Of a DNA stretch of 64,000 nt, positions 22,920 through 60,756 are shown in pieces. Location: contig JAGGHK010000001.1 in assembly GCA_024104275.1 (NCBI GenBank), positions 186,001 to 250,000 of the forward strand, written 5' to 3'. Origin of the DNA: Bifidobacterium sp. (GTDB lineage: Bacteria > Actinomycetota > Actinomycetes > Actinomycetales > Bifidobacteriaceae). The position numbers and the translations under genes were made by a program. Each line of letters begins with the position of its first letter. Within the stretch, counting starts at the first letter, position 1. The notes under the pieces were generated by a model. The model did not search any database and was not told the origin of the DNA. It was given only the letters and a program-made list of their open reading frames with translations.

Positions 22920-23026
22920 GTGGTTGGTCGTGGGGGTCTGGGGTAAACTTTCTCGGGACGCTCCGGGCCGCTCGGCCAAGTCATACGCCCGAGAAAGTTT
23001 ACCCCAGACCCCCACTCATGTTGCGT
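22920..23026 (-). repeat. Long-hairpin element, copy 1
   Basis: Two perfectly complementary 27-nt arms (22931-22957 and 22988-23014) enclose a 30-nt loop. On the minus strand the loop contains CGTATGACTTGGCC and GGCCCGGAGCGT, the family core. The ends also match the family: CAACATGAGTGG on one side and GGTTGGTCGTG (as read on the plus strand) on the other. It lies in the pta-ackA spacer, sense with both genes. Confidence 0.8.
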
Positions 23027-23080
23027 TGCTCAACTTACAATAATTAATCTAAACTCGATAAGCTGGAATGTACTACGTTA

Positions 23081-24763
23081 TTACTGCTGAGCCTCTACGG
23101 CGGTCAAAGCGACCGTGTTGATGATGTCTTCGACCAGGGCACCACGAGAGAGGTCGTTGACGGGCTTGTTGAGGCCTTGGAGCACCGGACCGATGGCGAT
23201 GGCGCCGGACGTGCGTTGCACGGCTTTGTAGGCGATGTTGCCGGCAGCAAGCGACGGGAAGACGAAGACATTGACGTGACCTGCCACGTCGTTGCCCTTG
23301 GCCTTCGTGGCGGCCACGGTGGGCGACCAGGCAGCGTCGAACTGGATGGAGCCGACGGCCGGCAGATCCGGGGCCTTCTCGTGGACGAGCTTGGTGGCTT
23401 CCTCGACCAGGTCGACATCCGGGCCCTTGCCGCTGCCGAGGGTGGAGTAGCAGAGCATACCCACCTTCGGGTCGATACCGAAGGACTTGGCGGTCTGGGC
23501 GGACTGGATGGCGATGTCGGTCAGCTGTTCGGCATTCGGGTTAAGGTTGATGGCGCAGTCAGCAAAGACGGCCACATGATCCTTGAAGCACATCAGGAAC
23601 GCGCCCGAAACCAGCGAGGCACCGGGCTTGGTCTTGATGACCTGCAACGCGGGACGCACGGTGTTGGCGGTGGAATTGATGGAGCCGGAAACGAGGCCGT
23701 CGGCCTTGCCGAGTACGACGAGCATGGTGCCGAAGTAGCTTGGATCGGTCAGTTGCTTGCGGGCCTGCTCAGGAGTCATACCCTTCTTGGCGCGCAGTTC
23801 GCAGAGCTTGGTGACCATGGGGTCCAAGACTTCCTCATCATCCATCGGCTGGTAGGCGGCCTTGTCGAGCGAATTGAGGCCGAGTTCCTTGCCGCGGGCC
23901 AGAATCGCATCCTTGTCGCCGACGATGATGAGCTTGACGATGTCACGTTGCAGCAGGTAATCCGCGGCTTTGATGATACGGTCTTCCGAGCCTTCTGGCA
24001 GCACGATGGTCTTCTTGCCGGCCTTTGCCTTGGCCAACAGCTCGTTCTGGAAAGCATAAGGAGTGGTCGGGGCATCGAACGGCGTGCGGGCGGCGGCTAC
24101 GACCTCATCGGCCGGAGCATTATCGGCAAAGGCCTTGGCGGCCTTGTCGGCGGCATCCGGATCGGTGTCGGAGGGGAAGTCGACGGCCGGAATAGTCCAG
24201 ACCGGCACGGGGAAATCCTCCAGTGCTTCCTTGGCGTCTGCGGCCTTCTCTTCGGTGCAGCCGGTAACAAAGATGCCGGCGACCTTGCCGCCAGCCTGTT
24301 CGATTTCGGCCGTGCAGGTTTCGACGCTGGCCTTCACCTGTTCGCCGTTGCGCGGGATGGTGCAGATGGCGAGGAAGGTCTTCGCCTTGAGGTCAGAAGC
24401 GATATTCGCATTGAAAGTGAATGCTTCCGGATCAAAGACCGCGGAACCGTCGCTGCCAACGATGACCATGGAGTCGGGATTCGTGCGTTCAAGTTCGGCG
24501 CTGTAGGCGGCGACGATATCGCCGCGTGCCGAGGCCTTGTCGCGGCGGGCGCACTTGGGGCATACACCACGCACCTGGTCAATGGACTGACCGGCATTGG
24601 CGGCTTTGAGCAACTCGGCAGTGAACGTTTCCTTCTTGCAGGCAACCGGACGGAATACGGCCGTCTTTCCTTTCGCAGCGAGGGCTTTTACCACGCCGTA
24701 GGCCACGACATTACGGCCGTTCTTGCCTTCTGGACTTGCGATATAAATGACTTCGTTTGTCAC
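23081..24763 (-). CDS. pta: Phosphate acetyltransferase (long form)
   Basis: 560 residues. Interconverts acetyl-CoA and acetyl phosphate. The C-terminal PTA/PTB domain (about 235-555) has VLPEGSEDRI, GLVSGSINSTANTVRPALQ, SSCFLM-like (seen GAFLMCFKDHVAVFADCAIN), GMLCYSTLGSG and VFVFPSLAAGNIAYKAVQR. The N-terminal part resembles the P-loop/DRTGG region of long Pta, but its loop reads SPEGKNGRNV rather than a GKS/GKT loop, so nucleotide binding there is doubtful. Start is the GTG at 24763, 7 nt after AAAGGAG; the ATG-free extension upstream has no such site. Confidence 0.94.
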   Translation of the reverse strand: MTNEVIYIASPEGKNGRNVVAYGVVKALAAKGKTAVFRPVACKKETFTAELLKAANAGQSIDQVRGVCPKCARRDKASARGDIVAAYSAELERTNPDSMVIVGSDGSAVFDPEAFTFNANIASDLKAKTFLAICTIPRNGEQVKASVETCTAEIEQAGGKVAGIFVTGCTEEKAADAKEALEDFPVPVWTIPAVDFPSDTDPDAADKAAKAFADNAPADEVVAAARTPFDAPTTPYAFQNELLAKAKAGKKTIVLPEGSEDRIIKAADYLLQRDIVKLIIVGDKDAILARGKELGLNSLDKAAYQPMDDEEVLDPMVTKLCELRAKKGMTPEQARKQLTDPSYFGTMLVVLGKADGLVSGSINSTANTVRPALQVIKTKPGASLVSGAFLMCFKDHVAVFADCAINLNPNAEQLTDIAIQSAQTAKSFGIDPKVGMLCYSTLGSGKGPDVDLVEEATKLVHEKAPDLPAVGSIQFDAAWSPTVAATKAKGNDVAGHVNVFVFPSLAAGNIAYKAVQRTSGAIAIGPVLQGLNKPVNDLSRGALVEDIINTVALTAVEAQQ

Positions 24764-24888
24764 GATGTAACTCCTTTGTGCATGTTGCGCACGATCTTTT
24801 CGATTAACTACGATATCGATCCCTTCCATTTTATGCGAAGGTGTGACGTAGACGACGTTCGTGAAGTTCAAAGGAAACGTCGAATACG

Positions 24889-24924
24889 AAAAGGGACATC
24901 AGGTCGAAACCCGATGTCCCTTTT
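24889..24924 (-). terminator. Terminator of xfp
   Basis: 12-bp perfect arms AAAAGGGACATC and GATGTCCCTTTT between xfp and pta on the minus strand. The T-rich end on the minus strand fits termination after xfp, so pta probably has its own promoter. Confidence 0.75.
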
Positions 24925-24964
24925 ACTGGATGGCTACTTGAAACGTAGCCGAATGTCAATCAGC

Positions 24965-27445
24965 TCATTCGTTGTCGCTGCCGGTGCTCATGGCGGCTTT
25001 GGCGGTGGCCTTGACGTCCTGGTTCTTCACGTCGGAGTATACGAAGCCGGTGTAATCCGGGTGATCGTAGCCCTCGTCGACGGCGAACTGGAAGGCATCC
25101 TTGCGGAACTGTTCCAGCTTGTCGATCTCGTGGCTGTACTTGTCGGCGTCGAGCGTGCGCAGCGCCTCGGCGGTCAGCTCGTAGCGATCCATGTCGTTGA
25201 CGCGCACCATGTCGTACGGCGTGGTGGTGGAGCCCTGTTCCTTGTAGCCGTGAACGTTGAAGTTGTCGTGGTTCGGACGGTTGAAGATGATGGACTGGAT
25301 GTCGTGGGCATAGGAATGATACGCGAAGAGGACCGGCTTGTCGGCGGTGAAGAGTTCGGTGAACTCGTCGTCGGTCAAAGCCTCGTCGTTGTCCTTGGGG
25401 CTCTGCAATTTCAGGATGTCAACGACGTTGACGACCTTGAACTTGATGCCGAACTCCTTGAGCTTCTCGCTGGCGGCCATGGTCTCCAGAGTGGGGACGT
25501 CGCCGACGCAGGCGAGCACGATCTGCGCTTCGTCATTGTTCTTGGCGGTGGAGGCCCACTTCCACTCGGCTGCGCCCTTCTTCAGCTCTTCACGAGCCTC
25601 GTCGAGGGTGAGCCAGGTGGCGGCGGGCTGCTTGCCGGCGAAGATGGCGTTGATCTTGTTGGTGGACTTGAAGGCCTTCTCGGCGACGGCCAGCAGCATG
25701 TTGGCGTCGGCGGGGAAGTACTCGGCCACAACGTGATCGTTGTTGAAGGTCTTGTTCAGCAGAACGGAGCTCACGCCCGGGTCCTGGTGGGAGAAGCCGT
25801 TGTGGTCCTGGCGCCACACGTGCGAGGAGATCAGCATGTTGATCGAAGCGACGGGCTTGCGCCACGGAATGTGACGGACCGTGGCCTCAAGCCACTTGGC
25901 GTGCTGGTTCAACATGGAATCGATCACGTGGGCGAAGGACTCGTAAGTGCTCCAGATGCCGTGACGGCCGGTGAGGACGTAGCCCTCGAGGAAGCCTTCC
26001 ATCTGGTGCTCGGAAAGCTGCTCGATGACCTGGCCGGTGACGGCCAGGTGCTCATCGGTCTGTTCGGAGAGATAGCCGTTGTCCCACTGCTTGTTGGTGA
26101 CCTCATAGGCCGCCTGCAGACGGTTGGACGCGGTCTCGTCAGGTCCGAAGATACGGAACGAATCCGGGTTCATCTTGATGATGTCGCGGGTGTAGTTGCC
26201 CAGCTGACGGGTGGCTTCGAGCTGACCCCAGCCGTGGCCGTACTCCTTGACACCCTTGACTTCGTAAGCGTCCAGGTCGGGGAGCTTCAGATCCTCGCGG
26301 ATGCGGCCGCCGTTGGCGTTCGGGTTCTGGCCTATACGCAGTTCGCCCTTGGGCATGAAGTTGGTGACCTCGGGACGGATCGCACCCTTCTCGTCGAAGA
26401 GCTCTTCCGGCTTGTAGGATTCCATCCAGCCTTTAAGGACCTGGAAATGAGCCTCGGTGTCACGGGCGCTGGCCAGCGGCACCTGGTGGGCGCGCCAGGA
26501 ACCTTCGGTCTTCTTGCCGTCGATGTACTTCGGGCAGGTCCAGCCCTTCGGCGTGCGGAAGATGATCATCGGATAGGTCGGACGATCCATATCGTCGGTC
26601 TGCGCCTTGGCCTTGATGTCGCAGATCTTGTCGAAGACTTCTTCGAGCATGTCGGCGAAGCGACGGTGGATGGACATGTGGTCCTCATCGTCGAAGCCGG
26701 CAACGAACTCGTAGGGCTCGTAGCCCATGCCCTCGAAGAACTCGTGGAGCTCCTCATCGGGGATACGGGAAAGAATGGACGGGTTGGCGATCTTGTAGCC
26801 GTTCAAATGCAGGATCGGCAGCACGATGCCGTCGGTGCGCGGGTTGACGAGCTTGTTGGACTGCCAGCTGGTGGCCAGCGGGCCGGTCTCGGCCTCGCCG
26901 TCGCCCACAACCGCGGGCACGAAGAGGCTCGGGTTGTTCATGATGGCGCCGTAGGCGTGGCTCAGCGCGTAGCCGAGCTCGCCGCCCTCATGGATCGAGC
27001 CCGGGGTCTCCGGCGCGAAGTGCGAGGGAATGCCGCCCGGATAGGAGAACTGGCGGAAGAACTTCTGCAGCCCCGCCTCATCCCTGGTGATGTTCGGATA
27101 ATACTCGGTGTAGGTACCGTCGAGATAGGACTGCGAGGTGCCTGCGGGGCCGCCGTGGCCGGGGCCCATGATGAACACGGTGTTCTGCTGATGATCCGCG
27201 ATGAGGCGGTTGATATGGCCGAACAGGAAGTTCAGGCCAGGGGTGGTGCCCCAGTGGCCGACGAGACGGTACTTGACGTCCTTGCGGGTGAAGGGTTCCT
27301 TCATCAGAGGATTGCTACGAAGATAGATCTGACCGATGGAAAGATAGTTGGCGGTGCGCCAATACTTGTCGACTCCCTCAAGAGCCTCATCAGAAACCGG
27401 CTTGCCGAGCTTCTTCCACGGGGTGCCAATAACAGGACTAGTCAT
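24965..27445 (-). CDS. xfp: D-xylulose 5-phosphate/D-fructose 6-phosphate phosphoketolase
   Basis: 826 residues, the usual length. The thiamine-diphosphate enzyme splits fructose 6-phosphate or xylulose 5-phosphate into acetyl phosphate plus a sugar phosphate and defines the bifid shunt. Motifs: [52 protein letters not shown], the cofactor-binding [14 protein letters not shown], and [16 protein letters not shown]. The acetyl phosphate is used by ackA next door, with pta giving acetyl-CoA. Divergent from guaA across a 445-bp AT-rich spacer. Confidence 0.97.
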
Positions 27446-27890
27446 TTATGCTCCTGTACTCCTGTACACATTGTGTGCAATTGATTATTTTCTTCGGGCC
27501 CAAACCTTTGTTACTATTGATGTTCAGGGTTCGTGCCCAATCGATGTTCACTTTACGTGGCGACTCAGACTTTTGGACGTTTTTTTGCATCTATGTGCAT
27601 ATTTGAGATGTTTTTGTTAAATAATGTTGTATTATACCAAAAATATGTGAGGTTTTCGAACGTGAAAAAACAACTTGCAAACGTTGAAATTGAGCCACAA
27701 ACTCCCAAGTACCAACGCTTAGCGATGTTCGATTCACAGAAAATTCACGCGGCGTGTTGCCTTTTGTGATGTTGTTTTTTGTTTGTTCCGAACCCACCGC
27801 GTAAACACTTGATTTTGTCGCCTTGAACCACGAGAATGGACACTACTTTATATCTGTTTCATACCGACAATATATATATAGGGAGAATCC
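27446..27890. other. AT-rich divergent promoter region between xfp and guaA
   Basis: 445 bp with no credible gene in either direction; short frames here lack start signals. Both strong genes start outward from it. I could not pick a unique -10/-35 pair. No riboswitch or hairpin was recognised. Confidence 0.5.
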
Positions 27891-29453
27891 ATGGCAAAAG
27901 GTCCAGTGCTTGTCGTTGACTTCGGCGCGCAATACGCCCAGCTGATCGCGCGGCGCGTGCGCGAGGCGCATGTCTATTCCGAATTGGTGCCGCATTCCAT
28001 GCCGGTGGACGAGATGTTGGCCAAGGATCCGAAGGCCATCATTCTTTCCGGTGGTCCCGCTTCTGTCTATGAGCCGGGCGCACCCGACATTGACAAGAAG
28101 ATTTTTGAGGCCGGGGTGCCGGTGCTGGGCATCTGCTATGGCTTCCAGGTCATGGCCAATGAGCTGGGTGGCAAGGTCGACAAGGCGGCACTTGGCGAAT
28201 ACGGCAAGACCGAGGCCGTGATCGACGATGCCGAAGGCGTGCTTGCCGGTTCGCCGAACGAACAGACCACGTGGATGAGCCATGGTGTGGCGGTTGAGAA
28301 AGCTCCGAAAGGCTTCAAAGTGCTCGCGCATACCGAAGGTGCCCCGGTGGCAGCGATGGAGGATGAATCCCGCAAGCTTTACGGCGTGCAGTGGCACCCT
28401 GAGGTGAAGCACACCCCGCTTGGCAACGAATTGTTCTCTACATTCCTTCACAAGTGTGCAGGCTTGCCCAGCGATTGGGACGCCGACAATATCATTGACA
28501 CACAGGTGAAGAAGATTCGCGAGGAGGTCGGCGATGCCGAGGTCATCTGCGGGCTTTCCGGCGGCGTTGATTCCGCAGTTGCGGCGACCCTGGTGCACAA
28601 GGCCATCGGCGACCAGCTCACCTGCGTCTTCGTCGACCACGGCATGCTGCGCAAGGGGGAGGCCGAGCAGGTCCGTCACGATTTCGTCAAGGCCACCGGC
28701 ATTCGCCTCGTTGAAGTCGATGCTTCCGAGGAGTTCCTGACAGCTCTGAAGGGCGTCACCGAGCCGGAACGCAAGCGCAAGATCATCGGCGAGAAGTTCA
28801 TACGCACCTTCGAGAAGGCCCAGAGGCAGGTCTTGGAAGAAGCCGGGGCCCGAGGCAAGGAAGTCAAGTTCCTCGTGCAGGGCACGCTTTACCCGGACGT
28901 CGTCGAATCCGGCGGCGGCGACGGCGCGGCCAACATCAAGTCGCACCACAACGTGGGCGGACTGCCCAAGGACGTCAAGTTCAAGCTCATTGAGCCGCTG
29001 CGCAGCCTGTTCAAGGACGAGGTGCGCGCCATCGGCACCAAGCTCGGCCTGCCCGACAACATCGTGTGGCGCCAGCCGTTCCCGGGCCCGGGTCTGGGCA
29101 TCCGTATCATCGGTGAGGTCACCCGCGAACGTCTCGACCTGCTGCGCGAGGCCGATGCCATCGCCCGCGAAGAGATGACCAGAGCCGGGCTCGACCGCGA
29201 CATCTGGCAGTGCCCGGTGGTCCTGCTCGCCAACGTCCATTCCGTGGGCGTGCAGGGCGATGAACGCACCTACGGCTCGCCGATTGTGCTGCGCCCGATC
29301 TCCTCGGACGATGCGATGACCGCTGACTGGTACCGTCTCCCGTACAACGTCTTGGCCACAATCTCCACGCGCATCACTAACGAATGCCGCGGCATCAACC
29401 GCGTGGTGCTCGACTGCACCTCCAAGCCGCCGGCCACCATCGAGTGGGAGTGA
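27891..29453 (+). CDS. guaA: GMP synthase (glutamine-hydrolysing)
   Basis: 520 residues. Makes GMP from XMP, glutamine and ATP. The N-terminal class I amidotransferase has [10 protein letters not shown] (nucleophile Cys) and the WHPEV His-Glu pair. The ATP pyrophosphatase domain has [11 protein letters not shown], and the C-terminal dimer domain ends KPPATIEWE. The GGGAGAA before the ATG at 27891 is the ribosome-binding site. The xpt-pbuX purine salvage genes lie 5 kb downstream. Confidence 0.96.
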
Positions 29454-29500
29454 CACAGTGACATTGGCCGCGCTCATCGCATGATTATTAAGTGTTGACG

Positions 29501-29533
29501 ATGGTGCCCCTCGTTTCGGCGTAAGGGCACCAT
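29501..29533 (+). terminator. Terminator of guaA
   Basis: ATGGTGCCC (29501-29509) and GGGCACCAT (29525-29533), perfect 9-bp arms followed by TGCTTTGT. Confidence 0.65.
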
Positions 29534-29589
29534 TGCTTTGTAAAATATAGAAATGAGAGTATCAAAAAAGATTTGAGACAGGGAAACAG

Positions 29590-29953
29590 TGAAGTAAGCG
29601 CAAACGCCACCTGGTTGGTGGTGTCCGGCTTGGTATTGGTCGGCGCGAACCTGCCGCTCAACGTGATTTCGGCGATAAGTATGGGACTGGCGACCGCTGC
29701 GTCGTTCAGCATCTGCATCGTGTTCTTCCAGAAGCGCACCACTTCGGCGGCCGACACCGCGCGCCTGTCCGGAATGGCACAGTCCAGTGGCTATCTTTTC
29801 GCCGCCATCGGCCCGGTCGCGCTGGGCGCTCTGAACGGCCTGCTCCATTCGTGGACGCCCATCATCGTCCTCGTCCTCATTGTCATCGTCACGATGTTCG
29901 TTGCCGGTTTGGTCATTATCAATCATCGCGATATCTACGAGGGGCTAGACTGA
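29590..29953 (+). pseudogene. C-terminal remnant of a major-facilitator (CynX/NimT-like) transporter
   Basis: The frame encodes about 120 residues with four membrane segments: NATWLVVSGLVLVGANL, a second ending SFSICIVFFQ, the family-typical RLSGMAQSSGYLFAAIGPVALGALNGLLHSW stretch (split here only by length), and LVLIVIVTMFVAGLVII. These are the last helices of a 12-helix transporter. There is no start with a ribosome-binding site, and the first two-thirds is absent, so it is a deletion remnant. It abuts the guaA terminator and the aldo/keto reductase. Confidence 0.7.
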
Positions 29954-29991
29954 ATACTATTAGTGCAAAAGTAACCTGGAAGGCAGAAGCA

Positions 29992-30840: not shown

Positions 30841-30874
30841 GCGTCTACTGGTACGAGTGATCCTGAAAATTCAG

Positions 30875-30920
30875 ACAAAAGCCGTGATTCCATTTTGATT
30901 ACTGGAATCACGGCTTTTGT
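30875..30920. terminator. Bidirectional terminator
   Basis: 18-bp perfect arms (ACAAAAGCCGTGATTCCA and its complement at 30903-30920) around a 10-nt loop, between the aldo/keto reductase and the small minus-strand gene. Confidence 0.8.
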
Positions 30921-30993
30921 GAATCACTGTAACCGATACTGGTCCTATTGATCGGTTTCCGACATATCCCCGTAAATCTGTAATAGAAGAAGT

Positions 30994-31338: not shown

Positions 31339-31526
31339 GATATATCACCAACTTTTCCTCAAATATGCAACAACTTATGAAGTGTACACCTTAAGGAAAA
31401 GGTAGGTGTAAAGCGAATTCTGCCTTCGGCGTGATATAGGTGATAATTTTTTGATGGCAGATTCGGGAAAACATGGTTTAATGTAGTCGGAATATTTCTT
31501 TCATGTTGAAAGGAAACAAGGAAAAT

Positions 31527-32699: not shown

Positions 32700-32780
32700 T
32701 GAAACAATAAATGGCTTATTGTGTTTGAGCATTGGTCAGTAATATTCGTTGACTTGTTGATAAGCTGAAGCGGTGTACAT

Positions 32781-32823
32781 GAATGGGTCTCATCGAATAG
32801 TTGAATTTCGGTGAGACCCATTC
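32781..32823. terminator. Terminator between convergent genes
   Basis: GAATGGGTCTCA (32781-32792) and TGAGACCCATTC (32812-32823), 12-bp perfect arms, then ATTATTAATTATT. It separates the M20 gene from pbuX. Confidence 0.75.
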
Positions 32824-45497: not shown

Positions 45498-45499
45498 CG

Positions 45500-48634: not shown

Positions 48635-48642
48635 AACCTTCT

Positions 48643-49131
48643 ATGACATGGCTGGGCGTGGATTTGGGAGACGCCAGGGTCGGCTTGGCTCTAAGCGACC
48701 CTGAGCTCTCCTTCGCCCACCCAGAAGGTAATATCCAGGCCTATGGCGATTCGTTTCGCGCGTTGGATGAAGTCGTGGATTTCATTGATGACCATACCGA
48801 TATCGATAAAGTCGTTGTTGGTCTTCCGCTGCTTCTGAGCGGAGAAGCCGGGAAAAGCGCCAAAAAAGCTAAACGCTGGGCCTCGAACCTCGCGAAACGT
48901 CTTGAAGCGGCCGTCCAAAGCGAGGACTATAAAATAGACAATGTCCCTGAGATAGTACTTCAGGACGAGCGTCTCACCACGGTGAGCGCACACCACCAGT
49001 TGAGCCAAGCCAGCGTCCAGAGCAGAAATCACCGGCCGGTGGTCGACCAGCAGTCGGCGGTAGTCATCCTTCAGTCGGCTTTGGATGGACGCAACCGACA
49101 ATCCGAAAGCAGAGAGGGAATTCATGCCTGA
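48643..49131 (+). CDS. ruvX: RuvX/YqgF-type Holliday-junction resolvase-like nuclease
   Basis: 162 residues, RNase-H-like fold. Conserved acidic residues are visible in VDLGDARVGLALSD at the start, in the central KVVVGLPLLLSGEAGKSA strand, and in LQDERLTTVSAHHQL. The family processes junctions and, in some bacteria, pre-16S rRNA ends. The gene follows alaS by 8 bp and overlaps mltG by 8 bp; this order is conserved widely. Confidence 0.9.
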   Translation: MTWLGVDLGDARVGLALSDPELSFAHPEGNIQAYGDSFRALDEVVDFIDDHTDIDKVVVGLPLLLSGEAGKSAKKAKRWASNLAKRLEAAVQSEDYKIDNVPEIVLQDERLTTVSAHHQLSQASVQSRNHRPVVDQQSAVVILQSALDGRNRQSESREGIHA

Positions 49132-50299
49132 AGACTTCAACGAGCTTTTCGACACGAACGCCGAGTGGGTCGACCCTGAAGGTCAATCCGCTCAGCCTGA
49201 GCCGCCAAAGCCGCCGAAATCGCGTCATGAAATGCGTCTGCGCAAGCAGCAACAGCGTCGCCGGCAGATGACCATTGCGGCCATTGTTGCAGTGGTCCTG
49301 CTTATCGTCGGTTGCGGAGGCTTCTTCGGCATCAGAGCTGTGACCCACCACGTCAATAATAATGCGCAGGAGGTTCCCTCGGATTATTCCGGTCCGGGAA
49401 CGGGGCAGGTGTGGTTCACCGTCGATACCGGCGAAAGTGTCGCTTCCGTAGCCAAACATCTGGTCAAGGCAGGTGTGGTCAAGAACGCGGATACGTTCGC
49501 GAGCACGGTGGCGGCCAATAATAGCACGCTTTATCCGGGCATGTACGAGCTCAAAAAACACATGTCATCCGTGGATGCCGTCAAGATTCTTTCCGACAGG
49601 ACCAAGGCCACCGGATTCCTTGAAGTGAAAGCCGGGGAGCGCAGCTCGGACGTCATTGCACAGGCCGCGCAGCTTTCCGGTATTGATAAATCTCAGTTCG
49701 ATACGATAGTTAATGGCGGTGGGCAAGGGATTCTCCCCGCCGAAGCCGGAGGCAAATTCGAGGGCTGGTTTGAACCGGGCGTCTACGATGTCAAGAAGAA
49801 GGGCAGTACGGCGGCCTCGATTTTAAAGTCGATCGTCGATAAGCGTGTGGCCAGGCTCAACGATCTGAAAGTGCCGACCGGCGCCGAACGCGAGACCATC
49901 CTTAATATGGCCTCCATCGCCGAATCAGAAGTGAATCGTTCCGAATACTACGGCAAAGTCGTGCGTGTCATCATGAATCGGCTCAACCAAGGCATGGCGC
50001 TGGGCATGGATTCAACGGTCGCCTACGGAGCGAACGTCAAACCGAGCGAGCTCACCGATGCGATGCTGGGTGATGCTTCCGACCCTTACAACACACGCAT
50101 CAACAAGGGTCTGCCGCCCACACCGATCAGTTCACCCGGCGACGAAGCCATCAAAGCCGCGATGAACCCCACTTCGGGCGACTGGCTCTATTTCGTTACC
50201 ACGAACCTGCAGACGGGCGAGACCAAGTTCGTCTCCACCCAAGAAGAATTCAACCAGATTCGCGATGAATACAAGGCCCAAAATCCCAACGCCAACTAG
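49124..50299 (+). CDS. mltG: Endolytic murein transglycosylase MltG
   Basis: 391 residues. A Pro/Gln/Arg-rich cytoplasmic start (1-56), one membrane helix (about 57-78), a LysM-like domain, then the YceG catalytic domain: NMASIAESEVNRSEYYGKVVRVIMNRL (catalytic Glu in AESEV), LGMDSTVAYG, YNTRINKGLPPTPISSPG and LYFVTTN. It cleaves nascent glycan chains and sets their length. The start at 49124 has AGAGGGA upstream; a frame from 49085 overlaps ruvX without need. Confidence 0.92.
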   Translation: MPEDFNELFDTNAEWVDPEGQSAQPEPPKPPKSRHEMRLRKQQQRRRQMTIAAIVAVVLLIVGCGGFFGIRAVTHHVNNNAQEVPSDYSGPGTGQVWFTVDTGESVASVAKHLVKAGVVKNADTFASTVAANNSTLYPGMYELKKHMSSVDAVKILSDRTKATGFLEVKAGERSSDVIAQAAQLSGIDKSQFDTIVNGGGQGILPAEAGGKFEGWFEPGVYDVKKKGSTAASILKSIVDKRVARLNDLKVPTGAERETILNMASIAESEVNRSEYYGKVVRVIMNRLNQGMALGMDSTVAYGANVKPSELTDAMLGDASDPYNTRINKGLPPTPISSPGDEAIKAAMNPTSGDWLYFVTTNLQTGETKFVSTQEEFNQIRDEYKAQNPNAN

Positions 50300-50359: not shown

Positions 50360-50468
50360 GCGGTTGGTCGCGCTTTTGGCGGGATATACAATGTTCTGGA
50401 CACTCAAGGCCGTTCGGCCAAGCCTACGCCAGAACATCGCATATCCCGCCAAAACCGCTTATGTTGTG
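50360..50468 (-). repeat. Long-hairpin element, copy 2
   Basis: 30-nt arms (50370-50399, 50429-50458) with 27 pairs plus two positions that are G-U wobbles when read as minus-strand RNA. Loop core CGTAGGCTTGGCC...GGCCTTGAGTGT on the minus strand. Ends: CAACATAAGCGG (minus sense) and GCGGTTGGTCGCG (plus strand). Confidence 0.8.
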
Positions 50469-50511: not shown

Positions 50512-50622
50512 CAACATGAGTGGATTTGGGGGAATATGCGATGCTGAGGCGTAAAGCTTGGCCTACCGGCCTGGAGGGTGCCGAAGCATTGTATATTCCC
50601 CCAAATCCGCGACCGACCGCGA
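50512..50622 (+). repeat. Long-hairpin element, copy 3
   Basis: 24-nt arms (50522-50545, 50585-50608), two G-U wobbles in plus-strand RNA, otherwise paired. Loop core GCGTAAAGCTTGGCC...GGCCTGGAGGGT. Ends CAACATGAGTGG and CGCGACCGACCGC. Faces copy 2 in opposite orientation in the mltG/prepilin-peptidase spacer. Confidence 0.8.
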
Positions 50623-50658
50623 AATGTAACTAATTAAGCAAAATTGTAACGAACCCAA

Positions 50659-51141
50659 CTATAACGCGGCCAATAATACTGCGATGATAGATGAGAACAC
50701 GATTACAGGGACGAACGGGGCCTTGCGTGAGTTGGCGGGTGAGCGTTGAGTCAGCTTGGGATAAAGGGGAATCCAGAGGAGACCCAGGACGCCCATAGCG
50801 AGCCACCAATAGAGGTAGGGCATCAGACCGAACGAGCCTACGGCGAGGCCAACCAAGAACGATGTGGTGACGTCTCCGAATCCCAAAGCGCCCGGTTTGA
50901 GGCGGGAGAGCAGGAATTGGATGGCGGCTGATAGGGTTGCGTATCCAAGCGGTAGCAGAACTTTCGCTGGATTGCGTTCGATAATGGAGAGCGCGAGAAA
51001 GACTGCCAGCTGCGTCAAAACTCCGATGGCCACCCACATTCTGGGCACGAGAAAACGGCGGATGTCTTCGATGACAAGCGCCAGTCCGCAGATCAGACTC
51101 GGGAGTGCTGCAATGTAGGCCATATCGGTAAGATAGTGCAT
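50659..51141 (-). CDS. A24-family prepilin-peptidase-like protein (short form)
   Basis: About 160 residues with some five to six membrane segments. Both aspartate motifs of A24 aspartic proteases are present: EDIRRFLVPR near the start and GFGDV in the middle. There is no methyltransferase domain, as in short archaeal and actinobacterial forms. It would cleave leader peptides of pilin-like proteins, but no pilus genes are in the window. ATG 51141 is preferred; a TTG at 51189 would extend it by 16 residues. Confidence 0.75.
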   Translation of the reverse strand: MHYLTDMAYIAALPSLICGLALVIEDIRRFLVPRMWVAIGVLTQLAVFLALSIIERNPAKVLLPLGYATLSAAIQFLLSRLKPGALGFGDVTTSFLVGLAVGSFGLMPYLYWWLAMGVLGLLWIPLYPKLTQRSPANSRKAPFVPVIVFSSIIAVLLAAL

Positions 51142-51238
51142 AAACCCATTGATTGACGAATGGAAAGCGCGAAAAAGCGGAAAATTCAAGGTTTATTTTT
51201 CTAAATCTTGATTCGTCAAGGTTCGGCAAGGAGTAAGT

Positions 51239-52423
51239 ATGTTGCGTTGGCAGACGGCAGGGGAGTCGCACGGTGAGGCGTTGGTCGCGATGATTGAGGG
51301 TCTTCCGGCCGGCGTCGAGGTGCGCTCGCAGGACGTCGTGGATGCGCTGGCTCGCAGGCGTCTCGGCTATGGCCGTGGGGCGCGCATGAAGTTCGAGCAG
51401 GATAAGGTGCGGTTGCTGACCGGCGTACGTCACGGCAAGACGTTGGGCTCGCCGGTGACCGTCGAAATCGCCAACACGGAATGGCCGAAGTGGACCGAAG
51501 TCATGAGTGCCGATCCGCTTGACCACGAGCTGCCGCCGACCGGCCGCAACGAGCCGCTGACCCGCCCGCGTCCCGGCCATGCCGACCTGACCGGCATGCG
51601 CAAATACGGTTTCGACGACGCGCGCAACGCGCTTGAACGTTCCAGCGCTCGCGAGACCGCCTCACGTGTGGCTTTGGGCGAGATTGCGGCCAAGTTCCTT
51701 GAGCAGGCCGTCGGCATCCGCACGGTTGCCCATGTTGTTTCTTTGGGTGGTGAAAAGGCGGATACGAGTACCTTGCCGACTCCGGCCGATGTCGAGGCGC
51801 TTGATGCTTCACCGGTGCGCACGCTCGACAAGGATGCCGAGAAACGCATGATGGCCAAAGTCGATGAGGCCAAGTCCCGTGCCGATACGCTCGGTGGTGT
51901 GGTTGAAGTCATCGCCTACGGTGTGCCCGCAGGGTTGGGCACGTATGTGGAAAGCGATCGCAGGCTTGATGCCACGCTCGCTGGCGCCCTGATGGGTATT
52001 CAGGCCATCAAAGGCGTCGAGGTCGGTGACGGTTTCCTTGAGGCCGACCGGTTTGGTTCCGAGGCCCACGATGAGATGTTCGTGGACGACAACGAGCACA
52101 TCCAACGCTATTCCAACCGTTCCGGTGGTACGGAAGGCGGCATGTCCGACGGCCAGCCGATTCGCGTGCGTGCCGCGATGAAGCCGATTCCTTCGATTCC
52201 GCGCGCGTTGCGCACCGTCGATGTCGCCAACGGCGAAGAGGCCAAGGCCATCAACCAGCGCTCCGACACCACTGCGGTACCGGCGGCTTCCGTGGTTGCC
52301 GAGGCTATGGTGCGGCTGACGCTGGCCAAGTTCGTCCTTGAGAAGTTCGGTGGCGACAGTGTCGAGGAAACGCGTCGCAACGCGCAGAACTATCTCGATT
52401 CCTGGCCGGAGCATATGCGCTGA
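51239..52423 (+). CDS. aroC: Chorismate synthase
   Basis: 394 residues. Last step to chorismate, flavin-dependent. Motifs: [65 protein letters not shown] (split by residue use), and [17 protein letters not shown] with the late [23 protein letters not shown] precedes the ATG. First of aroC, aroKB, aroQ. Confidence 0.95.
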
Positions 52424-52525
52424 TCGCGTTTCGGCTTCACGTGTAGGTGATTTCCCGTAGATGAAAGCCGATGAATTAGAGCGAAAACGTAGGATATAGA
52501 GATAGAGAGACAAGGTGCATCAATC

Positions 52526-54151: not shown

Positions 54152-54269
54152 ACGATGACACAAGTTGCTAGATATGTTTTTAGGATTGGCGGAATATCAA
54201 GGTTCTTGAAAAGCCATCTGGCGACTTGTGCGGGGAAATCAGAACAAACCCAATAGAAGGACAAAGCAA

Positions 54270-54716
54270 ATGACCAAAGTAATCGTCGTCAACGGGCCAA
54301 ATCTCGGGCGTCTGGGAGTACGTGAGCCAGACGTGTACGGCCATCAGGACCTCAAAACCCTGCGCAAGGACTGCGCCGAATGGGGAAAGGCGCTCGGCCT
54401 TGAGGTCGAGGTTCGCCAGTCTGACGACGAGGCCGAGGTCATCGGCTGGATGCACCGGGCCGTCGATGAACAGACTCCCGTGGTAATGAACCCCGCCGCG
54501 TTCACCCATTACAGCTACGGCCTTTCCGACGCCGCCAAAATGGTCACCGACGCCGGACTGCCGCTGATGGAGGTTCACATCTCCAACCCATCGGCCCGCG
54601 ATTCGTTCCGCAAATACAGCGTCATCAGCCCAGTCGCCACCGGCACCATCACCGGCATGGGCTTTTACGGCTACAAGCTCGCCCTCGACGCCGTGGCCCA
54701 TCTGCTGGAGAAATAG
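54270..54716 (+). CDS. aroQ: Type II 3-dehydroquinate dehydratase
   Basis: 148 residues, a dodecamer-forming enzyme that dehydrates 3-dehydroquinate (step 3). VVNGPNLGRLGVREPDVYG at the start holds the catalytic loop; QSDDEAEVIGWMHRA binds substrate; MNPAAFTHYSYGLSDA carries the His region in the actinobacterial form; VHISNPSARDSFRKYSVIS follows. The ATG at 54270 has AAGGA upstream; the longer frame from 54228 has an unlikely Arg/Asn-rich start. Confidence 0.92.
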   Translation: MTKVIVVNGPNLGRLGVREPDVYGHQDLKTLRKDCAEWGKALGLEVEVRQSDDEAEVIGWMHRAVDEQTPVVMNPAAFTHYSYGLSDAAKMVTDAGLPLMEVHISNPSARDSFRKYSVISPVATGTITGMGFYGYKLALDAVAHLLEK

Positions 54717-54826
54717 ATCCAAAAATATATTACAAAAGTAATGCAGAGAATAGGGAAGTGTATATCAATTTTCCGCTCTGGCCTACGAACACGCCGAGTC
54801 AATAGAGGCTGATAGACTGAAGTTCC

Positions 54827-56506
54827 ATGGCAAGAGAAAATAATGATAATTCCCATGGACATGTCACCAAGCATATTTTCGTCACTGGTGGCGTTGTTTC
54901 TTCCCTTGGTAAGGGCCTGACAGCATCCTCTCTCGGTCGTCTTCTTCGCAGCCGTGGTCTCCGCGTATTGCAGCAAAAACTCGATCCTTATATCAACGTC
55001 GACCCGGGTACCATGAACCCGTTCCAGCACGGTGAGGTCTACGTCACCGAAGACGGCGCCGAAACCGATCTGGACATCGGTCACTACGAACGCTTCCTCG
55101 ACGTCTTCCTCTCCCAGAAAGCGAACGTCACCACCGGCCAGATCTACAAGTCCGTTCTCGAGAAGGAACGCGCCGGCAAGTACCTCGGTCAGTGCGTCCA
55201 GGTCATTCCGCACATCACCAACGAGATCAAGAGCCGCATGCGCGCTCAGGCCGCGGATGATGTCGATGTGATCATCACCGAAATCGGCGGCACCGTCGGC
55301 GACATCGAATCGCAGCCGTTCCTCGAGGCTGCACGTGAGGTCAAGCGTGAACTTGGCCCGCACAACTGCATGTTCGTGCACGTTTCGCTGGTACCGTACC
55401 TGCCGGCCGCCCACGAGCTGAAGACCAAGCCGACCCAGCACTCCGTGATGACCCTGCGCCAGCTTGGCATCACCCCTGACGCGCTCGTGTTGCGCAGCGA
55501 CCGCCCGCTCAACCAAGGCATCAAGGACAAGATCTCCCTGATGTGCGACGTCGACGAGGAAGGCGTGGTCAACTGCGTGGACGCCCCGAGCATCTACGAT
55601 GTGCCGAAGATCCTGCACAACGAGGGCCTCGACTCCTACGTGGTTCACTACCTTGAGCTGTCCGCCCACGACGTTGATTGGGCCGAATGGGACGACTTGC
55701 TCGAGCGCGTGCACCACCCGAAGGAAGAGGTCAATATCGCTATCGTCGGCAAGTACATCGATCTGCCCGACGCCTACCTTTCCGTCATCGAGGCCGTCAA
55801 GGCCGGCGGTTTCGGCAATTACGTGAAGGCAAATGTCAAGCTCGTCGCGGCCGATCTGTGCGAGACCGAGGCCGGTGCCGACGCAGAACTGCGCGACATG
55901 GACGGCATTATCGTTCCCGGTGGCTTCGGCATTCGTGGCATCGAAGGCAAGATCGGCGCTCTGCGTTATGCCCGTGAGCACAAGCTGCCTGCGCTCGGCC
56001 TGTGCCTCGGCCTGCAGTGCATGGTCATCGAGTATGCGCGCGACGTGCTGGAGCTTGAGGATGCGGATTCCTCGGAGTTCGAGCCCGGCTGCAAGAACCC
56101 GGTCATCGCCACGATGGAGGAGCAGAAGGATATTCTTGCCAATTCCGATATGGGCCACACCATGCGCCTCGGCGCTTATCCGGCAGTGCTCAAGGAGGGT
56201 TCGCTGGTCGAAAAGCTTTACGGCACCACCAACGTCAGCGAACGCCATCGCCATCGCTATGAGGTCAATGTGGCTTACAAGGATCGTCTGCGTGAGGGTG
56301 GCCTTGATATCTCCGGTGAAAGCCCCGACGGTGAGCTCACTGAGTTCGTCGAGCTGCCGCAGGACGTGCACCCGTTCTATGTCGGCACGCAGGCCCACCC
56401 TGAGTTCAAGTCCCGTCCGACCAAGCCGCATCCGCTCTTCCAAGGTCTGGTGAAGGCCGCGCTCGATCATCAGGAAGCCCGAAAAAGCCAGGCCGAAGAG
56501 GACTGA
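54827..56506 (+). CDS. pyrG: CTP synthase
   Basis: 559 residues. Aminates UTP to CTP with glutamine. Synthetase domain: [61 protein letters not shown]. Glutaminase domain: [28 protein letters not shown] (nucleophile Cys) and a late HPEF. The protein ends in an acidic, Gln/Ala-rich tail. It follows aroQ by 110 bp; it probably has its own promoter in that spacer. Confidence 0.96.
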
Positions 56507-56599
56507 GACTTTAAGTTGCGAACAGTATCGGTAGCGTATTTTTGCTGAGGTTCATCTTCAATCAGTGAAGTTGCTTCTGGCATTGTAAGAGCAAACGTA

Positions 56600-56627
56600 A
56601 GAAGACCCCGCTTCGGTGGGGTCTTCT
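56600..56627 (+). terminator. Terminator of pyrG
   Basis: AGAAGACCCC (56600-56609) and GGGGTCTTCT (56618-56627) with a GCTTCGGT loop, about 95 bp after the pyrG stop. The rest of the 346-bp spacer to sufB holds no gene. Confidence 0.8.
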
Positions 56628-56852
56628 GCTATATGCGGGGTTGTCAGAAACTGCTGGAATCGCAGAAAACAATCAAAAGCAAGAAACAGGTCGGCCGACT
56701 TCGAAAGCAAAAATTATAGGATTACGTCTATACGGAACACTTGTGAAGTAAATCACTTTCATTGTCAGCGTTCTTTTCTGTGCAACCCTAGTAATGAAAG
56801 GCCGATTCTGTTAGGTTTATAGAGTGCAATCAATGATGGGAGGCAGCGTACG

Positions 56853-58349
56853 GTGGCAGAAAAACCAACACCAAACGCCGCGTCTGATACGGAGATGAGC
56901 CAGTATGTGGCTGATCGTGAACGTGTCAACGAGGATAAGATCAAAAAGGATGACGAGATCATCGAGGAATTCGGCGAGTACAACTATGGCTGGCACGATT
57001 CCGATGCGGCCGGTGAAGCCGCGAAGAAGGGCATCGACGAGAACGTCGTTCGAGCCATTTCCGCCGACAAGGGCGAACCGCAGTGGATGCTCGATATAAG
57101 GTTGAAGGGTTATCGTGCCTTCATCGAGAAGCCCATGCCCAAGTGGGGTGTGGACCTCTCCGATTTCGATGCCGATGATTTCAAGTATTATGTAAAGCCG
57201 ATCGACAAGCCGGCCAAGAGCTGGGAAGACCTGCCCACGGATATTCGTACGACCTACGACAAGCTGGGCATTCCCGACGCCGAGAAGAAGCGTCTGGTTT
57301 CCGGCGTCGCCGCGCAGTACGAGTCCGAGGTCATCTACAACTCCATTCAGGAGGATTTGAAGAAGGAAGGCGTGATCTTCACCGATACGGACACCGCGTT
57401 GCGCGAGTACCCGGATCTGGTCAAGAAGTATTTCGCGACCGTCATTCCTTACGATGACAACAAATTCGCGGCGCTCAACACGGCGGCATGGTCCGGCGGC
57501 TCGTTCGTTTACGTCCCGAAGGGCGTCCACGTCGACATCCCGCTGCAGGCCTACTTCCGCATCAACACGCCGAACATGGGCCAGTTCGAGCGCACGCTGA
57601 TCATCGCCGAGGAAGGCTCCTACGTCCATTACGTCGAAGGCTGCACGGCACCGATCTACGCGACGGATTCGCTGCACGCGGCCAATGTCGAGATCATCGT
57701 CGGCAAGAACGCCCGGGTGCGCTACACGACCGTGCAGAACTGGTCGAACAACGTCTATAACTTGGTCACCCAGCGCGCCTACGTCAAAGAGGGCGGCACC
57801 ATGGAATGGGTCGACGGCAACATCGGCTCCAAGGCGAGTATGAAGTACCCGTCCTGCATCCTGGCCGAACCCTACGCGAAGGCCTCCACCATGTCGCTGA
57901 GCTTCGCCGGCAAGGGACAGTATCAGGATACCGGCGCCAAGATGATTCATCTGGCACCGCACACCAGCTCCACCATTGTCGCCAAGTCGATTTCGCGCGG
58001 CGGTGGACGTTGCGCCTACCGCGGTCTGGTCAAGGTGATCGACGGTGCCAAGGGTTCGAGCTCTTCGGTGGTCTGCGACACCCTGTTGGTCGATGACTAC
58101 TCGCGTTCCGACACCTATCCGCACGTCGACATCCGCGAGGACGATGTGACGATGGCGCACGAGGCGACTGTTTCCAAGGTCTCCGAGGACCAGCTCTTCT
58201 ACCTGATGAGCCGCGGCCTTGAGGAGAAGGAAGCCATGGGCATGATCGTGCGCGGTTTCGTCGAGCCGATCAGCCGCGAGCTGCCTATGGAATACGCGTT
58301 GGAGCTCAACAGGCTGGTCGAGTTGCAAATGGAAGGATCGGTGGGCTGA
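56853..58349 (+). CDS. sufB: Fe-S cluster scaffold protein SufB
   Basis: 498 residues. Core of the SufBCD scaffold that assembles Fe-S clusters. Family marks: [36 protein letters not shown], the beta-helix stretch [45 protein letters not shown] and [20 protein letters not shown]. Starts with GTG at 56853, 9 nt after GGGAGG. First gene of sufB-sufD-sufC. Confidence 0.95.
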
Positions 58350-58352
58350 TCG

Positions 58353-59576
58353 ATGACCGAACAAGAAGTGAATATTCCAGTAGCGGATCCCAATGATCCC
58401 TACGCGATGCCGGCAGCCATGCCGTCCAGCGCCGACAACGAGCGTCGCTCGTTTGAAGTGGACGACTTCAAGATGCCGACGCGCAAGCAGGAGGACTGGC
58501 GCTACACGCCGCTCGAGCGTATCGAGGAGTTCTTCAACGTCTTCACCCCCAGCGGCGAGACCAAGGTGACCGTCAGCAATATCGATGGTAGCCCTATCGA
58601 CGGTGACAAAGTGACCAAGTCGGTCGTTGACCGTGGCGAGTCGCCTTCCGGCAGCATCATGAAGCCGAACGATCGCGTCTCGGCCGTCGAATGGAACAGT
58701 GGGACTAAGACTGTCATCGTCTCCATTTCCGGAGAGCTTGACCAGCCGGTACTGGTTGACGTCGAAGGACATGGTGCGGATCTTGATTCCCTGCACCTCG
58801 TGCTCCAGGTTGCCGATCGCACGCATGGTGATATCGTCGTACGTCATCAGGGTTTAGCCCGTCTTGCCGAAGGCATCGAAATTATCACCGGCAAGGACTC
58901 CCATGTCTCCACGACCTTCGTGCAGGAGTGGGACAAGGGTTCCAAACATGTCGGCAACCAGCGCATCCACGTCGGTGACAACGCTTCGCTGCGTCACGCC
59001 GTGGTCACCCTCGGCGGCGACGTTGTGCGCTTGCGCATTGATCAGGAATTCGGCGGACCGCAGGGCGACCTCAACATGCTTGGCATCTACTTCGCCGAAG
59101 CAGGCCAGCACTTGGAGCATCGCACGATGGTGGTCCACAACTATCCGGAGTGCAAGTCCCGTGTGGTTTACAAGGGCGCGCTCGACGGCAAGGACGCGCA
59201 TTCTACTTGGGTGGGCAACGCGCTCATCAAGCCGCAGGCGCCGAACACCGACTCCTATGAGCTCAACCGCAACCTGGTGCTGACACCTGGCCCAGTGGCC
59301 GATTCCGAGCCGAATCTCGAAATCGAGAACGGCAACATCATCGGTGCCGGCCACGCCAGCTCCGTCGGCCATTTCGACGACGAGGAGCTCTTCTACCTGC
59401 AGTCGCGTGGCATCACGGAATCCGAGGCCCGCAAGCTCGTGGTCCGTGGCTTCTTCGCCGACCTCATCGAACAAACCGGTGTGCCCAGCATCGCCGAACA
59501 CCTTATGAATGTCATTGACCGTAGGCTCGCGCGCGGCGAAAGCGCCGACATGCAAGCGGTATTGGAGGATAAGTAA
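58353..59576 (+). CDS. sufD: Fe-S cluster assembly protein SufD
   Basis: 407 residues. Partner of SufB with the same beta-helix core: DDFKMPTRKQEDWRYTPLERI near the start, then LVLTPGPVADSEPNLEIENGNI and the shared HASSVGHFDDEELFYLQSRGITESEARKLVVRGFF region near the C-terminus. Begins 3 bp after sufB; its stop overlaps the sufC start (TAATG). Confidence 0.94.
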   Translation: MTEQEVNIPVADPNDPYAMPAAMPSSADNERRSFEVDDFKMPTRKQEDWRYTPLERIEEFFNVFTPSGETKVTVSNIDGSPIDGDKVTKSVVDRGESPSGSIMKPNDRVSAVEWNSGTKTVIVSISGELDQPVLVDVEGHGADLDSLHLVLQVADRTHGDIVVRHQGLARLAEGIEIITGKDSHVSTTFVQEWDKGSKHVGNQRIHVGDNASLRHAVVTLGGDVVRLRIDQEFGGPQGDLNMLGIYFAEAGQHLEHRTMVVHNYPECKSRVVYKGALDGKDAHSTWVGNALIKPQAPNTDSYELNRNLVLTPGPVADSEPNLEIENGNIIGAGHASSVGHFDDEELFYLQSRGITESEARKLVVRGFFADLIEQTGVPSIAEHLMNVIDRRLARGESADMQAVLEDK

Positions 59577-60352
59577 TGTCTACATTGGAAATCAAGGATC
59601 TCTACGCATCGGTGGAGACCAAAGAAGGTCGCAAGCAGATTCTCAAAGGCGCGACCCTGACCGTCAACTCCGGCGAGACGCACGCCATCATGGGCCCCAA
59701 TGGCTCTGGTAAGTCCACGCTGGCCTACACGCTGGCCGGCCATCCGAAGTACTTCGTCGATTCCGGCGAGGCGCTGCTTGACGGCAAGGACCTGCTGAAG
59801 ATGACTGCGGATGAGCGTGCGAAGGCCGGTCTGTTCTTGGCCATGCAGTATCCGGTCGAGGTGCCGGGCGTTTCGATGACCAACTTCCTGCGCACCGCCA
59901 AGACCGAGGTCGATGGCAAGGCTCCGGCCATCCGTACCTGGACCAAGGAACTGCAAGACGCCATGAAGAACCTGCGTATGGACAAGAAGTTCGCCTCCCG
60001 TTCCGTCAACGAAGGCTTCTCCGGCGGCGAGAAGAAGCGCGCCGAAGTGCTGCAGCTTGAGCTCTTGAAGCCCAAGTTCGCCATCATGGACGAGACCGAC
60101 TCCGGACTTGATGTCGATGCACTGCGCATCGTCTCCGAAGGCGTCAACCGTGCCAAGGAAAACACCGGACTCGGCATCATGCTCATTACGCATTACACTC
60201 GAATTCTCAAGTACATCAAGCCGGATATTGTGCATGTGTTTGCAGGCGGGCGCTTTGTCAAGACTGGAGGACCGGAGCTTGCGGATGAACTGGAAGAGAC
60301 TGGGTATGATCAGTATCTGCCTGAGGGATCGACCGAATCTGCTTTAGCATAG
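59576..60352 (+). CDS. sufC: Fe-S assembly ATPase SufC
   Basis: 258 residues. ABC-type ATPase of the SufBCD complex. Walker A GPNGSGKST, the signature FSGGEKKRAEVLQLE, Walker B FAIMDETDSGLD and LITHYTRIL with the H-loop; LAGHPKY is typical for SufC. The 1-bp overlap with sufD implies coupling. After it a 450-bp spacer with two long-hairpin elements separates sufBDC from sufSU. Confidence 0.95.
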   Translation: MSTLEIKDLYASVETKEGRKQILKGATLTVNSGETHAIMGPNGSGKSTLAYTLAGHPKYFVDSGEALLDGKDLLKMTADERAKAGLFLAMQYPVEVPGVSMTNFLRTAKTEVDGKAPAIRTWTKELQDAMKNLRMDKKFASRSVNEGFSGGEKKRAEVLQLELLKPKFAIMDETDSGLDVDALRIVSEGVNRAKENTGLGIMLITHYTRILKYIKPDIVHVFAGGRFVKTGGPELADELEETGYDQYLPEGSTESALA

Positions 60353-60391
60353 TTTAGTTTTTGCTTGTTTTCCGTAGGCAACTTGCTTTTT

Positions 60392-60498
60392 GCGGTTGGT
60401 TGCGGAGGGAAGGGGATATCATGCTTCGGCACCCTCAAGGCTGGTAGGCCAAGCTTTACGCCTCAGCATGACATCCCCTTCCCTCCGCTTATGTTGCG
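60392..60498 (-). repeat. Long-hairpin element, copy 4
   Basis: 24-nt arms (60402-60425, 60465-60488) with a single non-Watson-Crick position, a G-U wobble in minus-strand RNA. Minus-strand loop core GCGTAAAGCTTGGCC...GCCTTGAGGGT. Ends: CAACATAAGCGG and GCGGTTGGTTGCG (plus). Confidence 0.8.
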
Positions 60499-60660
60499 TT
60501 TAGCGGTCAGGTTATTTTTTAGGGCTTTGGAAGATTTCGATACATCGAGTATCGAAATCTTGCAGGCTCCGCCTGAATGGTTACTGCGGAGTTCGTAATT
60601 CCGATAGCTGAGGAATATTGGTACTTACCAATATTTATTGACTAATGTTGAGTTGGGTCA

Positions 60661-60756
60661 CGTTATGAGTGGGGGAGCGGGATATGCGATGATCAGACAT
60701 AAAGCTTGGCCTACCGGCCTGGAGGGTGTCTGAGCATTGTATATCCCGCTCCGCCA
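60661..60756 (+). repeat. Long-hairpin element, copy 5
   Basis: 29-nt arms (60670-60698, 60728-60756) with 25 Watson-Crick pairs and two G-U wobbles in plus-strand RNA. Loop core CATAAAGCTTGGCC...GGCCTGGAGGGT. The 5' end CGTTATGAGTGG fits the family; the 3' end has diverged. Opposite orientation to copy 4. Confidence 0.75.

Follow-up and report, generated by a model that had tools for sequence, protein, structure and literature searches.

Rickettsia palindromic elements (RPEs) were reportedly described by Ogata et al. in 2000 and 2002. According to excerpts of PMC2229807 and PMC10969869, they are dispersed palindromes of 105-146 bp that lie between genes and, in frame, within conserved genes; excerpts of PMC2229807 place in-frame palindromes in conserved genes of both Rickettsia and Wolbachia. 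In this work, we analyzed a 64,000-nt stretch of Bifidobacterium sp. DNA (assembly GCA_024104275.1, contig JAGGHK010000001.1, positions 186,001 to 250,000, forward strand; hereafter the window), in which five long hairpins, h1 to h5, belong to one family. We consider it fairly probable that these hairpins are copies of a non-autonomous mobile palindrome with a conserved apical module. Like RPEs, palindromes of about 107 nt are found at 19 places in the source genome, and relatives lie in frame in conserved genes (33 of 77 copies in Candidatus Saccharibacteria). Unlike RPEs, they occur in different phyla, have a conserved tip with a tertiary pair, exchange their tips, and use several frames and both strands. 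The family thus appears to work like RPEs, a likeness of behavior and not of compared sequences, and is not assigned to them. The preliminary description of the five hairpins knew no named family that matches, which holds for the searches made, but a known kind does seem to match, namely in-frame palindromic elements as in Rickettsia. PubMed Central search listings, including those for Bifidobacterium, Saccharibacteria or Patescibacteria, showed no description of the tip family, a coverage outside which subscription journals and preprints lie.

In integron attC sites, as here, stem structure seems to matter over sequence, but attC has conserved end boxes where the present hairpins have a conserved tip. 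Repetitive extragenic palindromes (REPs), as excerpts of PMC3733652 describe them, measure 20-40 bp with stems of 5-13 bp and carry GTAG or CGTC tags, the CGTC class holding two RPE families and lacking a transposase. Like these REPs and their dimers, the bacterial interspersed mosaic elements (BIMEs), our hairpins are palindromes that often pair up in opposite orientation, and they may carry a short unpaired end tag; unlike them, they have stems of about 30 bp, and the same excerpts name no bifidobacteria, actinobacteria or saccharibacteria. Like bacterial miniature inverted-repeat transposable elements (MITEs), some of which give in-frame fusions (PMC10969869, in excerpt), they are short and palindromic and would be non-autonomous. 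Unlike in MITEs, we saw no constant terminal inverted repeat among the aligned copies, and their arms differ from site to site.

The five hairpins, 96-111 nt in length, lie at 22920-23026 (h1, minus strand), 50360-50468 (h2, minus), 50512-50622 (h3, plus), 60392-60498 (h4, minus) and 60661-60756 (h5, plus), where the strand is the one bearing CTTGGCC. All five copies that had been described were confirmed at these positions, and each folds better as DNA than 200 of 200 dinucleotide shuffles (z = -8.45, -7.25, -6.19, -6.22 and -7.90 for h1 to h5). Along the CTTGGCC strand, a left end AACATRAGYGG is followed by a stem of about 30 bp, the tip CGTA..CTTGGCC-4 nt-GGCC-2 nt-GAG-N-GT, and a right end similar to CGCGACCRACCGC. 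A loop core and ends common to all copies had been proposed; the tip is indeed common, and so are the ends except in h5, which deviates from the consensus at left and right. The tip cores match the exact pattern at 22958-22980 in h1 (contig 208958-208980, CTTGGCC-GAGC-GGCC-CG-GAGCGT), 50400-50422 in h2, 50557-50579 in h3 and 60705-60727 in h5, each on the strand of its hairpin, and the core of h4 (60431-60453, minus) has an AGCC variant in the 3' tip stem. The consensus fold of the five (RNAalifold) contains 36 predicted pairs, 16 of which show two-sided changes that keep the pair. Arms that differ and yet pair are borne out, but arm sequence is not arbitrary, since the inner arm in 12 source-genome copies follows a consensus near GGGATATGCGATG. 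The idea that the arms are captured foreign spacers was dropped because inner arms follow this consensus and orthologous sites keep alignable arms.

The apical module spans about 35 nt (GGAC-CGTARG-CTT-GG[CG]C-NNNC-G[GC]CC-TTGAGNGT-GTCC) and combines an asymmetric internal loop with a 4-bp tip stem capped by a 4-nt loop; it is carried on a long stem that varies by site. Three tip classes occur, GAAC/GAGTGT (as in h2), GAGC/GAGCGT (h1) and TACC/GAGGGT (h3), in which loop base 3 and the base that follows GAG form A-T, G-C and C-G pairs, respectively. We counted this tertiary pair in 169 copies with a 4-nt loop and at least 11 of 14 outer-stem pairs (98 from Bifidobacterium and 71 from Saccharibacteria), a set that leaves out copies with 5-nt loops, expanded tips or weak outer stems. 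The pair is kept in 166 of the 169 (165 Watson-Crick and one wobble) against a shuffle mean of 101.8 and a maximum of 116 in 2000 shuffles; related copies are not independent, and the change is seen in both phyla and inside orthologous sites. With wobbles allowed, loop base 1 could fit as well (165/169), and the TACC/G class together with strict pairing favors base 3. The tip stem also covaries in Saccharibacteria, where it reads GGCC/GGCC in 37 and GGGC/GCCC in 33 of the 71 copies. In some copies the tip is expanded to about 110 nt and includes small additional hairpins; for 11 such sequences, one row of which is partly misaligned, 22 pairs were predicted and eight show two-sided changes. Conservation of the tip in two phyla and covariation of its tertiary pair are thus direct observations. 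The preliminary description took arms, ends and loop together as an argument for selection on a fold; the tip, which is conserved and has a covarying tertiary pair, is the better evidence for this, and co-varying arms by themselves do not serve as proof, because template switching also homogenizes arms (PMC8604942 and PMC8794818, in excerpt).

The family is much larger in this genome than the five copies first counted. The exact tip pattern has 12 matches in the source genome, and the covariance model R1 built from them contains 33 pairs, of which 23 show two-sided changes. At E<=1, R1 returned 35 rows there, of which 19 are distinct hairpins, 15 are hits to these hairpins on the reverse strand and one is weak (E 0.41); three further copies with expanded tips were missed by R1 and spotted by eye. 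In total, the genome has at least 19 hairpins of about 107 nt at distinct places, including six oppositely oriented pairs 35-222 nt apart. The search of bifidobacterial genomes that had been proposed succeeded, as 71 of 112 genus genomes match R1 at E<=0.01, an upper estimate for weak genomes, since a hairpin read on its reverse strand can score as high as 57.5 bits with R1. Inspection of a single locus per genome in 29 genomes revealed the tip by pattern in 28 and by eye in the other (L074; L and G numbers designate our loci and genomes). Across 95 genus copies with full flanks, information peaks in the tip and is moderate along the stem, with low positions scattered (on the 5' side, the least conserved lie about 7, 11, 22-23 and 27 nt out). 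At the 5' end it rises again at a GAG 31-33 nt out, with <=0.2 bits beyond, and the 3' end is softer, with CCGG at 28-31 nt. Because these outer ends stand at set distances, element length is nearly fixed in Bifidobacterium. The short 5' tag is not invariant (GAG, in some copies GTAG or GGAG), and the two ends, conserved as they are, are not inverted repeats of each other.

Beyond the genus, a tip-pattern scan of genome contigs gave at least 118 stretches; among the 80 listed, 59 are from Bifidobacterium/Bifidobacteriaceae, 15 are from Candidatus Saccharibacteria, and the other six (four Paracoccus, Comamonas and Duganella) resemble chance matches in genes. In an even sample of the Saccharibacteria order, 19 of 392 genomes carry the exact pattern, with the reversed-pattern control at 0 throughout, and the same control gave 0/12 in 12 Saccharibacteria genomes chosen as copy-bearing. 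Among 396 Actinomycetota genomes, the window's own was the sole match (0/395 others). One Saccharibacteria genome has three near-identical copies with different flanks (L287, L318 and L319).

The 77 distinct Saccharibacteria copies comprise 33 in genes in open frame, 42 intergenic and two at locus ends; our simple gene caller requires an open frame, so that gene-breaking copies would count as intergenic. Eleven in-gene copies are on the same strand as the gene and 22 are antisense, and the module is therefore not needed in the mRNA. Ten of the 11 same-strand copies share one frame, and among the antisense copies two frames account for 11 and 10 cases and a third, which is open in the consensus too, for one. 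Pfam domains around or beside the inserts include MnmA, TopA, TsaD, AlaRS, an FtsJ-type methyltransferase, UvrB, LigA, TGT, MurB, GyrA, RecX and class I tRNA synthetases. As a separate observation, the intergenic copies L263, L282, L295, L300, L311 and L313 stop immediately ahead of a TATAAT-like box and an ATG, as promoter insertions would.

Presence and absence of the element can be followed directly, site by site. Six of nine genomes have an insert at the TGT site (the family tip in antisense orientation in two, a diverged tip in the sense of the gene in two and other palindromes in two) and three have none, and at the LigA site seven of nine have an insert, with at least three kinds of tip, one of them degenerate, and two have none. 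Four of ten genomes are clearly empty at TatD, where two more lack the motif searched, and six of ten at ValRS. Two genomes carry different elements at PriA. The tips at one site can thus differ or be turned, sometimes on stems that still align: LigA G123/G114 share arms of about 30 nt under different tips, RecX G113/G116 and L296/L432 have alignable stems with differing tips, and ValRS G116/G439 share outer arms with tips in opposite orientations. Palindromes of other families, whose multi-hairpin tips are larger and GC-rich (CATTTCGGAGCGCGGCAGCGCGAGAATTAGCGC and relatives), were also noticed in Saccharibacteria genes (L432, L393, L363, L389 and L355), at sites that the tip family uses too.

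It is possible, though doubtful, that such sites are hotspots hit independently by different palindromic elements, so that apparent tip swapping is repeated insertion. The several unrelated tips at TGT and LigA, next to genomes with none, and the different elements at PriA fit this. However, arms of about 25-30 nt remain alignable and carry compensating changes despite differing tips in LigA G123/G114, RecX G113/G116 and L296/L432, although alignable arms could still arise if arms were copied from the host flank.

Similar turnover is seen among 13 close Bifidobacterium genomes, the window's own (G000) and 12 others, in which tips at one and the same site can differ. The pta-ackA hairpin is present in five of the 13, wholly inverted once (G083) and with an expanded tip twice (G092 and G093), as judged by eye in the stretch viewed. 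At the convergent site, eight of 13 have at least two hairpins, G085 has an arm remnant, and no hairpin was seen within the 400 nt viewed in G084, G090, G093 and G087. By eye, the tip in G082 is inverted relative to the ends, turned on outer arms alignable with those of G089, and the order of the hairpin pair is reversed between G000/G088/G091 and G092. A segment with two hairpins also appears to have flipped there as one unit between close genomes, and G082 has a third hairpin at this site. The right suf hairpin is present in eight of 13 (by eye, in the stretch viewed).

Unrelated hairpins at orthologous sites, or arms that do not co-vary, had been named as refuting the family; these checks did not refute it, since the left sufC-sufS hairpin is present with co-varying arms in 13/13 genomes, in one orientation and with the tip class altered in two. 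Here 97.5% of 483 cells (stem plus tertiary pair) are paired, 16 of 38 pairs show two-sided change, and covariation is 0.355 versus 0.152 shuffled; 0/500 shuffles reach the observed paired share, two-sided pairs or covariation, and slid alignments are at most 51.4% paired. That such arm covariation reflects solely compensatory selection for a folded RNA or DNA is conceivable from these pairing figures, and we regard it as rather doubtful, for two-sided changes (57 cells) far outnumber one-sided ones (12 cells) and tips turn, which is the footprint that template switching would be expected to leave. Excerpts of PMC8604942 and PMC8794818 describe how this process makes arms identical and inverts the spacer. 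The two processes can act together, and it is probable that stem complementarity owes as much to template switching as to selection.

For a mobile palindrome, several steps can be proposed. The module would spread as folded single-stranded DNA or through an RNA intermediate, moved by a trans-acting enzyme, or template switching would suffice. Template switching would copy one arm onto the other, which would be the main route by which arms stay complementary, and might also flip the tip and extend the palindrome into host sequence. Purifying selection would then retain a mobility-competent fold and purge gene-breaking copies. A more specific scheme, which we put forward only tentatively and hold to be rather unlikely as a whole, is that the apical DNA module, on insertion, places an inverted copy of one host flank at its other side. 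Each insertion would in this way create a hairpin specific to its site, whose tip could later be exchanged, expanded or flipped. Movement inside each of two distant phyla, and perhaps from one to the other, would need no dedicated transposase and would proceed by template switching at replication or by exploiting it. LigA and TGT inserts add about 20-26 residues (net 60-78 nt), and in 11 of the 13 genes with an insert the palindrome is longer than the net insertion, by 6-42 nt, a comparison that misses the arms of two inserts (G439 TGT and G455 LigA); the excess suggests that the palindrome partly consists of host sequence. The empty orthologue of L316 has a host gene end that agrees with the left arm (z 2.5 to 3.3) and not with the right arm (z -0.3 to 0.7). 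At L313, a protein likeness seen by eye (SEARKIIS versus KEARDIIGV) hints at a host-derived arm, with a weak DNA statistic.

Several observations weigh against the reading as a mobile palindrome. Host-derived arms are clear at one of six sites (L316), with L282 high on both sides, L314 mixed and L313, L295 and L312 weak, and we therefore rejected a host origin for all Saccharibacteria arms. The conserved ends in Bifidobacterium (GAG...CGG) make the arms there look like element and not host sequence. The closest pair, at TatD with nearly identical flanks, shows a deletion derivative and not an empty site, and the flanks of cross-genome empty-site matches are just 68-89% identical, none at strain level. 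FemAB G113, ValRS G113 and TatD G116 are deletion derivatives; the latter two were rejected as empty sites since they retain arm sequence missing from true empty sites, and thus give no support for flank copying. The left suf hairpin in all 13 genomes in a single orientation is what a functional cis element would likewise show, and of five covariation measures there, one, the count of further pair types, lies below its shuffled value (25 versus 27.4). Finally, no transposition was seen, and no mobilizing enzyme was found in a search that covered the Y1 transposase (PF01797) in 112 genus genomes.

Alternatively, the hairpins could be a cis-acting RNA, either a bidirectional terminator or an mRNA stabilizer, kept by selection at each site and not mobile, which we consider improbable. 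Besides the invariant left suf hairpin, two results speak for it. Among 47 Bifidobacterium copies with two called neighbors (tandem forward 20, tandem reverse 17, convergent 3, divergent 7), 40 are downstream of at least one gene end. In addition, five of the eight element-free pta-ackA gaps (G082, G085, G086, G087 and G091) have an ordinary terminator-like hairpin after pta, which is absent where the element is present, and the other three have other sequence upstream of ackA (all by eye). However, seven of the 47 copies lie between divergent genes, presence varies among close genomes, and 33 of the 77 Saccharibacteria copies are in reading frames, antisense twice as often as sense. Aligned source-genome copies have no T-run after the hairpin as judged by eye, no terminator scan having been run; lacking this run, facing both ways and sitting in divergent gaps, they do not look like intrinsic terminators. 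In line with the earlier view that this is more than a simple terminator, the Rfam scan of the window gave 0 families at gathering score, and at E<=1 two sets of 11 and 9 loci gave just sub-threshold microRNA-type matches and one sub-threshold L31 leader. Four of 63 Bifidobacterium copies fall within called genes; three of these are likely shadow ORFs, and the sole convincing case is L211, in a Pfam ECF ATPase. A mobile palindrome recognized by its folded tip, with stem sequence free, explains dispersal, loss, orientations, open-frame survival and tip conservation better than a regulatory RNA does, and in Bifidobacterium some of the hairpins may have acquired a role at transcript ends, either as bidirectional terminators or as mRNA 3' ends.

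An origin as REPs or BIMEs moved by a Y1 transposase of the REP-associated (RAYT) kind is very unlikely. The six opposite-orientation pairs and the short 5' tag do resemble the REP dimers in excerpts of PMC3733652, but the hairpins are several times longer than REPs and conserve a tip, not a tag alone. Because PF01797 occurs in 7 of 112 genus genomes and 0 times in the source genome, the Y1 transposase is unlikely as a general cause, and this origin was rejected. Carriage by phages or plasmids was also dropped: the exact tip pattern gave 0 matches in viral contigs, none in plasmids and one in phages, MT837054, which is probably a bacterial contig rather than a phage. In this record, labeled a bacteriophage, a Bifidobacterium-type copy lies at 9058-9152 of MT837054.1 (L450), and the ORF before it ends like a thioredoxin reductase (by eye; no family search was made). 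That the Saccharibacteria link is contamination or chance is hardly credible, even though the records are draft or metagenome-assembled and 12 genomes were picked for having a copy, given the zero reversed-pattern controls in those genomes and in the order sample, the copies in housekeeping genes with local arms, and the recurrence of the same sites in several related genomes.

In the window itself, with gene names from NCBIfam, h1 is located between pta (23081-24871, minus) and ackA (21547-22785, minus). The left and right members of the convergent-gap pair, h2 and h3, lie between an mltG-like gene (49085-50299, plus) and an unassigned ORF (50630-51580, minus). The inner stem of h3 has GCG opposite TGT (50538-50540 with 50590-50592; two G-T wobbles), an asymmetry that recurs in many copies of the clade. 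Between sufC (59576-60352, plus) and the sufS frame (ending at 62076, plus), h4 is the left hairpin, with an orthologue in 12/12 close genomes, and h5 the right one, whose presence varies among them. Another hairpin, GATTTCGATACATCGAGTATCGAAATC then GCAGGCTCCGCCTG, lies between them at 60533-60575, and its relatives elsewhere have altered but complementary arms (GATTTTGACACATCGAGTGTCAAAATC).

Taken as a mobile palindrome, this family would be a second, apparently independent in-frame palindrome system besides that of Rickettsia and Wolbachia, common to a cultivable gut genus and the ultra-small Saccharibacteria. Its conserved folded tip offers a handle that is searchable, can serve as bait for a protein and can be tracked by presence or absence at orthologous sites. 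Natural stems that change mainly by two-sided steps, with tips that turn, bear on the reading of covariation as selection. Since the inserts in LigA and TGT lengthen the proteins, the family shapes protein evolution.

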